A DNA stretch of 64,000 bases. Origin: Cyanobacterium stanieri PCC 7202 (GTDB lineage: Bacteria; Cyanobacteriota; Cyanobacteriia; Cyanobacteriales; Cyanobacteriaceae). The first letter of the stretch is position 1. Every line of letters starts with the position of its first letter. The notes beneath the pieces were generated by a model. It was not told where the DNA came from. It saw only the letters and a program-made list of their open reading frames with translations, and ran no database searches. The DNA lies in the NCBI GenBank assembly GCA_000317655.1, contig CP003940.1:2737547-2801546 (forward strand), in the 5' to 3' direction. Below are positions 21,468 through 26,299 of this stretch, piece by piece. Position numbers and translations under genes: made by a program.

Positions 21468-21787
21468 TGTTTTAGCTCAATATCAAGACTTTTTGCATAG
21501 AGAATACTCTCTAAGTTAGCATAAAAAATATACCTCAATTAATGGCATAATCATTTAAAGAACGACTGAAAAAAAGAGTTTACTTGAAAACAAGGAACAA
21601 ACGTCAACAAAAATTCATCTCAGGTTCACATGAAAGTCACAACTGATCTTTATACTGGGGTTAGTCAGCTTAAAAAGGTTTTCCTCTTTATCTCCTTCGC
21701 ACTTTAAGCTGACCACCCCAAACAATATTTTTTTAAATCTATAATTATTATTAAAAACACACATTAGTATAGATAAGAGGTTCATAT
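21468..21787. other. intergenic region upstream of the HhoA-type protease
   Basis: A 320-base gap between divergent mntA and the protease gene. It holds the strong imperfect palindrome at 21657-21719. I see no protein gene in it. Confidence 0.5.
21657..21719 (+). promoter_or_regulatory. long imperfect palindrome in the leader of the protease gene
   Basis: GGGGT and GTCAGCTTAAA on the left (21657-21674) pair with TTTAAGCTGAC and ACCCC on the right (21703-21719), 16 pairs in all, with a small 2:1 internal loop. The end loop is 28 bases. A run of seven T begins nine bases later. It lies 68 bases before the ATG, so it could be a leader attenuator, an operator for a dimeric regulator, or the end of a separate small RNA. 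Confidence 0.55.
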
Positions 21788-23002
21788 ATGAGTAAAAAGT
21801 CTTTATTTTCTAAATTAACGGCAGGTACATCTCTGCTGGTAATTGGCTTAGGTATTGGGGTGGGGATCAATTCCTTAACAAATATTGCTGAAATATCTGC
21901 TTTTAGTCCTTCTTTCACCTCCACAGAAGACGGTAATGGTAATAATGGTTCTTCGTCTGTGGCGAGAATTCCAGAGATGAACCGTAATGGTAATGTCAAC
22001 TTTGTGGCGGAGGTGGTACAAGAAGTTGGCCCTGCGGTGGTAAGAATTAATGCGTCCCGTACTGTTAGCACTAGGGTTCCCCCTATCTTTAATGATCCTT
22101 TTTTCCGTAGATTTTTTGGGGATCAGATTCCCAATATTCCCGAGGAGGAAACTAGAGAGGGAACTGGTTCTGGTTTTATTATTAGTGCTGATGGTAAGAT
22201 TTTGACTAATGCCCATGTGGTGGAAGGGGCATCGGAGGTTTCTGTTAACCTTATGGATGGTCGGGTTTTACAAGGTCGGGTTTTGGGTAGTGATGCCCTG
22301 ACAGATTTGGCTGTAATTCAGGTGGATGCTGATAATTTACCTGTGGCTAGGTTGGGTAATTCTGATGATTTAATTATTGGTGAATGGGCGATCGCCATCG
22401 GGAATCCTCTTGGATTGGATAATACTGTCACAACGGGTATTATTAGTGCTACAGGGCGATCGAGCGCCCAAATTGGTGTGGGGGATAAACGTCTTGATTT
22501 TATCCAAACCGATGCCGCCATCAACCCCGGTAACTCAGGAGGTCCTCTTTTGAATGCCCAAGGAGAAGTCGTAGCCATTAACACGGCAATTATTCGTAAT
22601 GCTCAAGGGTTAGGTTTTGCTATCCCTATTAATAGAGCGGCTGAGATTGCAGAACAGTTAATTGCTGATGGTAGGGTAGAACATCCATATATCGGTATTT
22701 CTATGGTTTCTATCACCCCTCAAAATCGCCAAAGAATCGAAAGTCAAGGATTTAGGTTATCTAGCGATGATCGAGGAGTCTTGGTGGTACAAGTAGCGCC
22801 GAACTCCCCTGCCGCTAGGGCTGGTTTACAACCGGGTGATATTATCACAGGTATTGGACAAAATAATAATGTCAGAGATGCAGAAGCCGTGCAACAAGCG
22901 GTTGCCTCTAGTCGTGTGGGTAATGATCTAGAACTCAGATTAAAACGTAACGCCGAAGAAGTTAGTTTAAACGTTACCCTCGGAGTTTTACCCACCCGAT
23001 AA
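21788..23002 (+). CDS. HhoA/DegQ-type serine protease with PDZ domain
   Basis: This is a periplasmic or lumenal trypsin-like protease for protein quality control and stress. The 404-residue protein begins with one membrane segment or uncleaved signal (SLLVIGLGIGVGINSL). The triad is His143 in TNAHVV, Asp173 in LTDLAV and Ser250 in NPGNSGGPL. One PDZ domain follows at about 290-390 (GVLVVQVAPNSPAARAGLQP). Cyanobacteria usually have three paralogues, HtrA, HhoA and HhoB; I cannot say with certainty which one this is. It lies behind a strong leader hairpin and is closed by a terminator. Confidence 0.93.
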   Translation: MSKKSLFSKLTAGTSLLVIGLGIGVGINSLTNIAEISAFSPSFTSTEDGNGNNGSSSVARIPEMNRNGNVNFVAEVVQEVGPAVVRINASRTVSTRVPPIFNDPFFRRFFGDQIPNIPEEETREGTGSGFIISADGKILTNAHVVEGASEVSVNLMDGRVLQGRVLGSDALTDLAVIQVDADNLPVARLGNSDDLIIGEWAIAIGNPLGLDNTVTTGIISATGRSSAQIGVGDKRLDFIQTDAAINPGNSGGPLLNAQGEVVAINTAIIRNAQGLGFAIPINRAAEIAEQLIADGRVEHPYIGISMVSITPQNRQRIESQGFRLSSDDRGVLVVQVAPNSPAARAGLQPGDIITGIGQNNNVRDAEAVQQAVASSRVGNDLELRLKRNAEEVSLNVTLGVLPTR

Positions 23003-23023
23003 AATTGATAAATTGATTGATGG

Positions 23024-23054
23024 GCAATCATCCCCTAGGGGTGATTGCTTTTTT
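23024..23054 (+). terminator. Rho-independent terminator after the protease gene
   Basis: GCAATCA-T-CCCC pairs with GGGGTGATTGC, an 11-base-pair stem with one bulged T and a two-base loop, followed directly by six T. It starts 21 bases after the stop codon. Confidence 0.85.
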
Positions 23055-23057
23055 GTG

Positions 23058-24377
23058 CTAATCGATAATAGGTTCAATTTTATCGACAACTTCAAGGCTA
23101 CCATCAGGATTTACCTGCCAAACATCATAAACACCAACCACATCGCCATTTTCATCAATATCGACATTACCACTGGCACCCTGATAATTAATAGTTTCTC
23201 CGTTACGAATTAATTCCATTGCCTCACAAGGATCAGTTACTTCTATACCATCACCTCCAGCAACTTCTCTGATATTATTTTTAATTCCTTCACCGCTATT
23301 TTGTCCTGCGGCCTCTGCCGCTAACATTAATAAAACAGTGGCATCCCAAGTATGGGGAACAAACGCTGTTAATTCTGTCCCTACACTTTGGCTCCATAGG
23401 GTTCTCAAATCATCTAAGGCATCTCCATCAGCCCCCGGGACAGTACCCAAAGCCCCTGCGATGATGGAAGTGCCATCGGCTCTTGTGCCTACCTGTTGGG
23501 TAAAGTCTTCGGAATAAACCCCATCGGTTAAAAGAATGGTGACACCGTCTGTTAAACCCTGCTGAAAGGCTGACTGTAATAATAAACTACCTGTTTCGGC
23601 ATATAAAATCGCTGCCACCGCATCAGGATTGTTGCCAAAAGCCCCTGCGGCTTCACTGTCAAGGGTTGTGGCTCGAGGATCATATCTCACAGGGCGATCT
23701 TGATTAATCACAGTTCCCCCCAAATCAGTAAAGGATTCATTGAATTGTCGTTCAAATCCTACCCCATAATCATTATTGATTACTACGGTAGAGACATTGT
23801 TAAATCCTCTCTGTCTGGCAAGGGCGGCAAGGGCTTGGGCTTGGTAGGTATCGGGGGGAGCGGTACGGGCCCAAAATCCGTTAAATTCTCCATTTTCAGC
23901 CCTTTCGGTAAATACAGGGCTGGTGCTACCGGGGGAAACCATCATTACTTCATTGCGCACTGCCACATCAAGGGCGGCAGTGGACACACTACTGGCAAAT
24001 GAACCAACCACTCCATGTACTTGATCTACTTCTGTCAGTTTTGTCATGGCGGCGCTTCCTGCGGCTGGATCGGTTTGATCGTCTTCATTGATAAGGGTTA
24101 CAGGTTCACCATTGACTCCTCCACAGGCGTTGATGGTATCCACGGCTAATCGAGCGGCAACGGGCATATTTTGACCAATGGAGGCTAAATCTCCAGTGGT
24201 AGGGAAGAGGGAACCTAGTCTTAAGCCTCCTTGTTGTTGGGATACGGGAGGTTGGGGGGCTGTTGTATCTCCATTCTCTACCGTGCCATCGGTGGTGCCA
24301 AAGATTCCACAACCAACGGTAAACCAATTTAAGCTAATGGCAAGGGTTAAAAATAGTTTTATTTTACTGTTTTTCAT
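23058..24377 (-). CDS. branched-chain amino acid-type ABC transporter substrate-binding protein
   Basis: This is a periplasmic binding protein of the leucine/isoleucine/valine-type family (Peripla_BP_6), 439 residues. A signal sequence ends in TVGC, a likely lipid-anchor site at Cys23, then a Pro/Gln linker. The binding lobes show LRLGSLFPTTGDLASIG, AARLAVDTINACGGVNG and VVINNDYGVGFERQFNESF. In cyanobacteria, relatives such as NatB bind neutral amino acids. No permease or ATPase gene is adjacent, which is usual for scattered nat genes. The ligand cannot be told from sequence alone. Confidence 0.88.
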   Translation of the reverse strand: MKNSKIKLFLTLAISLNWFTVGCGIFGTTDGTVENGDTTAPQPPVSQQQGGLRLGSLFPTTGDLASIGQNMPVAARLAVDTINACGGVNGEPVTLINEDDQTDPAAGSAAMTKLTEVDQVHGVVGSFASSVSTAALDVAVRNEVMMVSPGSTSPVFTERAENGEFNGFWARTAPPDTYQAQALAALARQRGFNNVSTVVINNDYGVGFERQFNESFTDLGGTVINQDRPVRYDPRATTLDSEAAGAFGNNPDAVAAILYAETGSLLLQSAFQQGLTDGVTILLTDGVYSEDFTQQVGTRADGTSIIAGALGTVPGADGDALDDLRTLWSQSVGTELTAFVPHTWDATVLLMLAAEAAGQNSGEGIKNNIREVAGGDGIEVTDPCEAMELIRNGETINYQGASGNVDIDENGDVVGVYDVWQVNPDGSLEVVDKIEPIID

Positions 24378-24439: not shown

Positions 24440-26299
24440 TTAAAGATTATTATCGATAATATTAATTAGTTTTTCTTTTTCCTTGATTTTTGGGGCTTGA
24501 TGGGGAGCAAATTTTTGATAACGAACTTTTAAGTCACCGAGGTTAATAGTCATTTTTGCCTGTACTGATGGTTCTTTTTCGGTGTCAAATTTTGGCACGT
24601 TTAAGTAACCAATTTGAGGAATATTGAAATAAAATCTGATTAGATTAGCTTTTTCCATTCTGCCAATGGTGCGACTGGCACAACCTTCGTATAGTCTGAG
24701 GAGGGTAGGTAAGGTGTCTAGTTCGTTGATATGTACTAAAAAACTTTTTTCAAATACTTTGCCAACGGTACAATTTTTTTGACAAATTTCTTTGATTAGA
24801 TCTAAGTTTCTGAGACTAATTAACATTTCGTCGGCAAGGAAACAGGCGGCTTGATAGTTTCCGAATAGGGCTTTTATATCTGCTTTTAGGGGTGCTGATA
24901 GTTGTCTAATACTTGGTCTTTTTTCAAATCTACTTAGGGCTAAATATAATAAGATGTCTTGTCGGCGTTGATCGGCGATCGCCTCCCATTCTTGCTCTTG
25001 AGTCACTTGTAAAATCACTCTGAAAGCCCGTTTAAATGAGCTAAATTCGGCTTTTATGGCTTCTTCTTGAGAAATTTCTCCTTTTATGGGCAATCGACCT
25101 CTTTGGGCGTAAAATTCCATGAGAGGTTGCAATAATTCTTGATAATCAGCAAATTTTTTGAGGGGAGATAAAACCCGGGGCGATCGCACCCTAGAATGAA
25201 AACGAGATGCCCGAAAACTATTGGCTTTGGTGGCATCCCGAAAGACAAAATAAACCCCCAAACCAGCAGGAATTGCCTCAGTTTTTAAAATCTGTTCGAT
25301 ATAGGTTTTTAATTCTTCTTGTTCATAATATTTTTGAAAGGTATTACGTTCAGTAATAATACCATCACCATAAGCCATAAAACCTGATTGACGATCATCC
25401 ACTAATACTTGGGCTGAAACTATTAAAATCTCTTGGGTTAACTCCCATGCCTTCACCAAAGATTCTCGTCTTTCTTGTAAATTTTCAATCACATTAATGA
25501 TATAACCTAAGTTAACGACATCGGCAGATTTTAATTCATTTTCTGGTTGATAATAGGGATCCCATCCTGTACTTTGAAAGCCCTTTTCTTGCATAACTTC
25601 TACATCCTTACCATGACCACAACCATAGTCAAAAAAACTATACTCAGCTTCAAATAAACCCGCTTCAAGGGCTAAACGAACAGGACGAGAAAGTCGATTT
25701 CTGACCATTGCCGCTCGATGACGGTCAACTTTATATAAATCTTCCTCCGTTTTACCTAAAAAACAAACTAAATTGTGATCAACAAAACAGAGATGATGAT
25801 CTCTTAATAATTTTTGCCATTCTTTTTGAGTACCAATGTATTTTGAATTGTCTAATAATCCTAATTGTTCTTCGATATATGTTAGATAAGCAAAGGTTTG
25901 ATAGTTAGGATAATCAACATTAACAAAAGTCTCTTTTCTATGTAGAATAGGGGGATTTTCCGAGCAAGAATAGTCATACTTTTTACTGCTATTCTCTTGT
26001 AAATTAACCAAAATACTTTTATTGATAGCAGGATGGGGATTTGTGTCGAAATCTGGATAAAAAAGATAGGATATTTTTGGTTCCTGAAGATTAAATTTTA
26101 CCAAGGTAAAATTATCTCCATTATTAATGACTATTCGTGCCTTTTTTTCGTATTCTTGTAGGTTAGGATCGAGGTAGGGTAGGGCTGAAATATGGACATA
26201 AAGATGATTCGGTAAAAGTTTACCGATCGCACTTTGACGGGCTAATTGAGCAATTTTGACAAAATCATTAACCCAATCTAAAGACAGATTAATTGTCAT
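24440..26299 (-). CDS. DNA phosphorothioation-associated putative methyltransferase
   Basis: I recognise this 619-residue protein as the family named for its frequent place beside dnd (DNA phosphorothioation) genes. Its core has the marks AAMVRNRLSRPVRLALE, the SAM-binding FFDYGCGHG (222-230), GWDPYY, ADVVNLGYIINVIEN and GDGIITERNTFQKYYEQ. The N-terminal module (26-126: GKLLPNHLYVHISALP, then YLFYPDFDTNPHP, HRKETFV) is repeated in weaker form at the C-terminus (513-612: GKVFEKSFLVHINELD, then YLNVPKFDTEKEP). No dnd, restriction or transposon gene is in the window. What it methylates is unknown. Confidence 0.85.
   Translation of the reverse strand: MTINLSLDWVNDFVKIAQLARQSAIGKLLPNHLYVHISALPYLDPNLQEYEKKARIVINNGDNFTLVKFNLQEPKISYLFYPDFDTNPHPAINKSILVNLQENSSKKYDYSCSENPPILHRKETFVNVDYPNYQTFAYLTYIEEQLGLLDNSKYIGTQKEWQKLLRDHHLCFVDHNLVCFLGKTEEDLYKVDRHRAAMVRNRLSRPVRLALEAGLFEAEYSFFDYGCGHGKDVEVMQEKGFQSTGWDPYYQPENELKSADVVNLGYIINVIENLQERRESLVKAWELTQEILIVSAQVLVDDRQSGFMAYGDGIITERNTFQKYYEQEELKTYIEQILKTEAIPAGLGVYFVFRDATKANSFRASRFHSRVRSPRVLSPLKKFADYQELLQPLMEFYAQRGRLPIKGEISQEEAIKAEFSSFKRAFRVILQVTQEQEWEAIADQRRQDILLYLALSRFEKRPSIRQLSAPLKADIKALFGNYQAACFLADEMLISLRNLDLIKEICQKNCTVGKVFEKSFLVHINELDTLPTLLRLYEGCASRTIGRMEKANLIRFYFNIPQIGYLNVPKFDTEKEPSVQAKMTINLGDLKVRYQKFAPHQAPKIKEKEKLINIIDNNL

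Follow-up and report, generated by a model that had tools for sequence, protein, structure and literature searches.

The 619-aa protein analysed here probably assists DNA phosphorothioation (PT) as an accessory SAM-dependent methyltransferase shared by the Dnd and the Ssp system, and it would act in trans in this organism, since its dnd partners lie at scattered chromosomal sites. The partnership with PT, extended to Ssp, is strongly supported. The two systems are regarded as distinct, overlapping in sulfur-transfer chemistry. An enzyme that resides beside both, is lost or decayed where both are absent and is missing from PADLOC thus points to an unrecognised step shared by the two. The enzyme family already carries a name that records its association with Dnd (NCBIfam TIGR04096, 'DNA phosphorothioation-associated putative methyltransferase'); the link to Ssp seems undescribed. 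In the portions of the literature available to our search, we found neither a study of a TIGR04096 enzyme nor a report naming it as a partner of Ssp. Jian et al. 2021 (PMC8569181), who describe cyanobacterial dnd gene sets as incomplete or disordered, do not mention it. DndI was rejected as a name for the enzyme, as it denotes, in the literature searched, a different protein that belongs to the PT-sensing defence system IscS-DndBCDE-DndI.

Gene, family and domain architecture

The window is a stretch of 64,000 nucleotides (C1:2737547-2801546) of a one-contig genome of 3.16 Mb. With 742.8 bits (E 1.6e-223) against a curated cut-off of 150, the product is a clear member of TIGR04096, as the first-pass annotation had proposed, and its neighbours are indeed a solute-binding protein and cdsA, the latter remaining adjacent throughout the clade. 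The 478 positions of the TIGR04096 model cover the core and the C-module only, that is, the short form of the enzyme. Residues 191-613 fill positions 2-425 of this model, from which the protein differs in an additional N-terminal copy of the module, in the truncation of its C-copy and in its location apart from dnd genes. In the AlphaFold2 model of the whole protein, built with 66 relatives (mean pLDDT 87, pTM 0.62), the N-terminal domain is followed by the class I methyltransferase core, then by a helical stretch and finally by the C-terminal domain (Table 1). PADLOC, which holds no model for the methyltransferase, did not match the protein.

Table 1 Features of the methyltransferase gene in positions of the window
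Feature	Position	Strand	Evidence
TIGR04096 two-module 'long' form gene, 619 aa	24440..26299	-	TIGR04096 742.8 bits
N-terminal module, residues about 10-178	25766..26272	-	alone matches TIGR04096 308-476, 4.2e-44
NPPILHRKETFV signature of N-module, residues 115-126	25922..25957	-	NPP[IVL]LHRKE retention counts
Class I SAM methyltransferase core, residues about 187-357	25229..25741	-	Methyltransf_23 5.4e-5; VIA-align Z 12.7 to 7bgg
SAM-binding motif I FDYGCGHGKD, residues 223-232	25604..25633	-	invariant residues in 66 sequences
Helical linker, residues about 358-500	24800..25228	-	predicted helices 356-365 to 499-508
C-terminal module copy, truncated, residues about 501-612	24464..24799	-	HHalign N vs C E 2.7e-88

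The third TIGR04096 match in the genome was rejected as a second copy of the family, being a short methyltransferase matched in the core only, and no second copy next to dnd genes was found when the genome was searched for one. We note a 281-aa protein (L086:928-1773, C1:948913-949758) with a match to the methyltransferase core in its N-terminal half; its C-terminal half appears by eye to be HIT-domain-like.

The methyltransferase core

Pfam yields a weak match to Methyltransf_23 at residues 208-266 that stays below the gathering score. F223, D224, Y225, G226, C227, G228 and G230 of motif I are invariant in 66 sequences, and the conserved DYGCGHG, a GxGxG-like motif I, together with fold matches of up to Z 12.7 identifies a class I SAM methyltransferase, which is expected to bind SAM through this motif. 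The best VIA match is 7bgg, and many others reach Z values near 10-11. TehB, UbiG, the bacillithiol methyltransferase NmbA and 7bgg resemble the core in fold (Z 10-12.7 over 130-150 residues), but identity is about 10-15% and the flanking domains differ. Overall, the core is as much like small-molecule and tRNA methyltransferases as any others. Among the matches listed for the structure search with the whole model, all concern the methyltransferase core, and a PDB sequence search with the whole protein and with the module gave no match. Signatures of DNA methyltransferases were sought in the core and are absent: N-L-G-Y at 263-266 takes the place of motif IV, [DNS]PP[YFW], after strand 4, there is no Pfam match to N6-adenine/N4-cytosine enzymes, and neither a match to Pfam DNA_methylase, the DNA C5-cytosine methyltransferase family, nor its PC catalytic motif was detected.

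A homologous module at both ends

Residues 10-178 alone match TIGR04096 positions 308-476 with 151 bits, and this is the part of the model that is also filled by the C-terminal end. When profiles of the two modules were compared by HHalign, they aligned over 178 columns with a probability of 100, while neither profile aligned with the core. In the AlphaFold model, the elements 32-36, 37-42, 45-58, 66-70, 75-80, 94-99 and 104-109 recur at an offset of +487/488. The homology of the two ends noticed in the first-pass annotation is therefore real, with the same predicted elements at constant offset; the length of about 100 residues that it gave to the repeat is wrong and has to be corrected to about 170. 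Modelled alone, the N-module forms an independent domain (pLDDT 92.9, pTM 0.87).

Searches with the module returned chance matches in Pfam, without any family, and unrelated folds in the PDB, where the best Foldseek E was 0.38 and the best VIA Z 4.4, values on account of which we do not assign a fold. The absence of a PDB match does not prove that the fold is new. No DNA-binding, phosphorothioate-reading or docking domain was recognised among the Pfam, Foldseek and VIA matches. The conserved residues of the module are Y-P, H-P and NPP-H-K. A small domain is able to read the PT sulfur, as exemplified by the SBD of ScoMcrA (PMC6224610). It shares the PT context with the module and uses H-R/K and Y-P residues; the module likewise has conserved H-x-K and Y-P pairs, but their spacing differs and the SBD is not among the listed Foldseek and VIA matches, so that homology is not shown.

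Because PT-DNA is what Dnd, SspBCD and SspFGH have in common, recognition of PT-DNA or of the complex producing it is the best explanation for a module kept with all of them. We would picture the module, i.e., the N-copy in long forms and the sole copy in short ones, as recognising something that the two PT systems share, in the simplest case PT-modified DNA or the modification complex bound to it. The module would hold the core at this target, where the enzyme may methylate the PT site, a position close to it or the PT machinery. The methyl group could serve to mark, protect or regulate PT sites. We consider recognition of PT-DNA or its making complex to be roughly in balance with the combined alternatives of docking to PT proteins and of an RNA or small-molecule substrate.

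Spelled out, the alternative is that the enzyme belongs to PT biology but has a substrate other than DNA, be it a PT-machinery protein, an RNA or a small molecule, with the end modules docking onto DndC/D/E or SspB/C/D. This is a tentative but serious possibility. It is in line with a core that lacks the signatures of DNA amino- and C5-methyltransferases and has small-molecule, thiol/tellurite and tRNA methyltransferases as its nearest folds, and the Y-P, H-P and NPP-H-K residues could equally form a protein-docking surface. On the other hand, the module has no match to a known docking domain, and serving DndC/D/E and SspB/C/D alike would be easier via their shared product, PT-DNA.

Phosphorothioation genes are dispersed over the source genome

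The gene had been called an orphan, which is wrong at the genome level, since dndC, dndD, dndE and SspBCD are all encoded in the same genome; the option raised in the first-pass annotation, that dnd genes reside elsewhere, was thereby supported. Genes for dndC (C1:2405057-2406390, TIGR03183; about 356 kb from the methyltransferase gene), dndD (C1:1518584-1520557, 608 bits) and dndE (C1:403595-403906) are singletons hundreds of kb apart; a search for dndB in the genome was negative. The ssp locus also lies separately from the methyltransferase gene, to which it is the nearest PT locus at a distance of about 88 kb (C1:about 2851600-2864600; L088:3603-16572, C1:2851603-2864572), and encodes two SspB/DUF4007-type proteins, SspC, SspD and a protein that is judged to be an HNH protein by similarity to its relatives. 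The adjacency to PT genes that the family name implies is thus absent here and present in relatives.

The reading frames of dndD and dndE are intact, and that of dndC is broken in the assembly. The split follows the SGGKDSS P-loop and is close to an A-rich run (L087:8919-10520, C1:2404919-2406520). In the sister species (G047) dndC is intact, and the part of the gene behind the break is under purifying selection. The break reflects either a recent loss or an assembly error. Two further observations concern the same genome: the ssp locus also encodes a 1566-aa protein without PADLOC or NCBIfam match, and C1:2303022-2304971 encodes a second DndD-related protein (124 bits, below cut-off) that has equivalents near dndC in several other cyanobacteria.

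The methyltransferase co-occurs with Dnd and Ssp

In a sample of 291 genomes of the cyanobacterial phylum, each at least 95% complete, the methyltransferase is present in 85, dndC in 74, dndD in 75 and dndE in 75; co-occurrence was evaluated by Fisher tests, which ignore phylogeny. The methyltransferase is shared by 73 genomes with dndC and by 74 each with dndD and dndE, and a single genome (G224) possesses dndCDE without it. The methyltransferase is present in each of the 20 genomes whose SspD match is strong (>350 bits). Within the order of the source genome, dndC/D/E or a strong SspD was found in 76 of 77 methyltransferase-positive genomes versus one of seven negative ones. Members of the phylum with weaker SspD matches (260-293 bits) lack the methyltransferase; they and G224 therefore indicate that PT does not strictly require the enzyme. 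Where congeners differ (genera g8, g16 and g33), those without the methyltransferase also lack dndC. Three genomes (G174, G176, G206) contain nothing but degraded remnants of the module and have no dnd match above cut-off, and these remnants appear to be in keeping with a joint loss of methyltransferase and dnd. Four positive genomes fall outside the dndC/D/E and SspD counts (G013, G051, G084, G271), and three of these have a DndC-like, SspC or SspB gene near the methyltransferase; none was found in G013.

These data also bear on the possibility, which we rate as unlikely, that the protein is a PT-independent housekeeping enzyme in the clade of the source genome. Its neighbourhood, with a solute-binding protein and a clade-wide conserved cdsA, and the frame-broken dndC would fit such a role. 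It is, however, at variance with the phylum-wide co-occurrence with PT genes and with the situation in the source family, where all seven sampled genomes contain the methyltransferase, dndC, dndD and dndE, each at separate sites, and five also have a strong SspD. A job apart from phosphorothioation, as the first-pass annotation had considered, is unsupported when dndC/D/E are present in 73-74 of 85 methyltransferase genomes and ssp linkage is seen in many others.

Gene neighbourhoods link the enzyme to both systems

Genes for dndC, dndD, dndE and the methyltransferase are consecutive in three cyanobacterial loci (L063, L082, L098), and the long form precedes dndBCDE in Pseudoalteromonas; in the source genome the Dnd system is present as dispersed singletons without dndB. 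Cyanobacterial enzymes occur as short (core and C-module) and long (module-core-module) forms, and the short form adjoins dnd genes in 17 of 21 copies, the long form in five of 66.

In many relatives the methyltransferase is linked to the Ssp system (SspBCD, SspFGH; PMC8092258), of which the source genome has sspBCD. Divergently oriented sspB and sspC lie upstream of the methyltransferase in 18 of 100 collected loci, with sspB at a median distance of 243 bp. Twelve methyltransferase-positive genomes lack dndC above cut-off. Adjoining sspB and sspC, or part of the latter, were found in G124, G161 (one of two copies), G271 and G287 and at the second methyltransferase copy of G188. G084 has an SspC fragment and an HNH gene within about 7 kb, G004 has sspBCD about 14 kb away, and G067 and G011 encode SspD elsewhere in the genome. 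A divergent DndC-like protein of about 400 aa is encoded next to the methyltransferase in G011, G051 and G161. Members of this DndC-like family, transcribed divergently to the methyltransferase, were noted at L066:451-1653, L079:993-2249, L102:8694-9926, L103:10245-11279 and L104:11301-12506, the last accompanied by dndD and dndE.

Linkage to Ssp extends beyond cyanobacteria: the long form follows sspD-sspF-sspG-sspH in Methylobacterium and, according to the annotated gene order, in Azospirillum and Sphingomonas, and lies beside SspBCD-type genes and a cysteine desulfurase on a Rhodobacteraceae plasmid. On two viral contigs (L132 and L138), sspB, sspC, sspD and the methyltransferase gene are consecutive. 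For plasmid copies in Massilia, Piscinibacter and Picosynechococcus PCC 7117, the flanking 8-10 kb contain no annotated PT gene. Plasmid A of Trichormus variabilis ATCC 29413 encodes the methyltransferase beside DUF4007/SspB-like and PAPS-reductase genes, and this plasmid and pSYSM of Synechocystis PCC 6803 are carried by tractable organisms. On pSYSM (NC_005229.1; L116:11992-14064, 21647-24280), the long form WP_011153563.1 has SspB, a cysteine desulfurase and an SspC shortened to 563 aa in its vicinity.

The two module copies are unequal

The C-terminal copy of the protein aligns to module positions 4-119 of 180. Loss of the last 60-65 residues of this copy is common to the clade of the source genome, and no remnant of the lost end was detected downstream of the gene, as was also the case in L004-L006 and L094. 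Of 101 N-copies in two-module forms, 97 retain the signature NPP[IVL]LHRKE, compared with five of 97 full-length C-copies; among seven short-form proteins, five have it in their only module. The restriction of HRKETFV to the N-copy, noticed for this protein in the first-pass annotation, is hence a general trait of two-module forms. Typically, the signature is retained once per protein, and for this reason we read the enzyme not as a symmetric clamp but as a protein in which one module putatively does the work and the other has diverged to a structural copy. The clamp that had been suggested thus stands in so far as two homologous modules surround the core, but the second copy has diverged, lacks the signature and is truncated here; it may represent a diverged structural half.

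In a tree of modules in which several nodes are weakly supported, cyanobacterial and proteobacterial N-copies group together, apart from C-copies, and short-form modules lie with the C-copies. This grouping indicates, within the limits of the weak nodes, that the duplication is older than this lineage, and the union of N-copies across phyla led us to reject a recent duplication. The internal duplication seems not to have been described before.

Compared with the sister-species copy, pN/pS is 0.16 for the whole gene, 0.12 for the core and the truncated C-copy and 0.23 for the N-module. Judging from these ratios, the gene including its truncated C-copy is under purifying selection. It is most improbable that the gene is a decaying relic, as the lost C-copy end and the broken dndC might suggest, given the low pN/pS in core and truncated copy alike, a truncation common to the whole clade and an intact SAM motif.

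Modules outside the enzyme

In the sampled cyanobacterial phylum, modules outside the enzyme are confined to fragments or copies with stops. Modules without methyltransferase core were observed in large phages, namely a 485-kb uncultured phage and 250-kb Vibrio phages, and on viral contigs (L141:5917-6516, LR745208.1; L140:5929-6906, QZI87455.1; L134:4611-5126; L135:8019-8291). Such a stand-alone phage module is possibly a counter-defence protein or a decoy. As the module is well predicted, has no family or convincing structural match and occurs alone in phages, it is a candidate PT-recognition domain. Going further, the enzyme may provide a third activity common to both PT systems, in which the module, possibly of a new fold, would sense PT sites, a methyl mark would be placed at the sulfur or beside it, perhaps even on the sulfur atom, and the phage module would act as a counter-measure; this is a speculative and rather unlikely extension.

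Two other viral proteins deserve mention. A 1232-residue piece of a viral protein (BFVD A0A516LL04_1) contains a structure match to the module (Foldseek E 1.4e-7, rmsd 2.1), and a viral contig (L137:3296-5671) encodes a 791-aa protein in which an N-terminus resembling HNH by eye is joined to the module, to a core like that of methyltransferases and to one more region.
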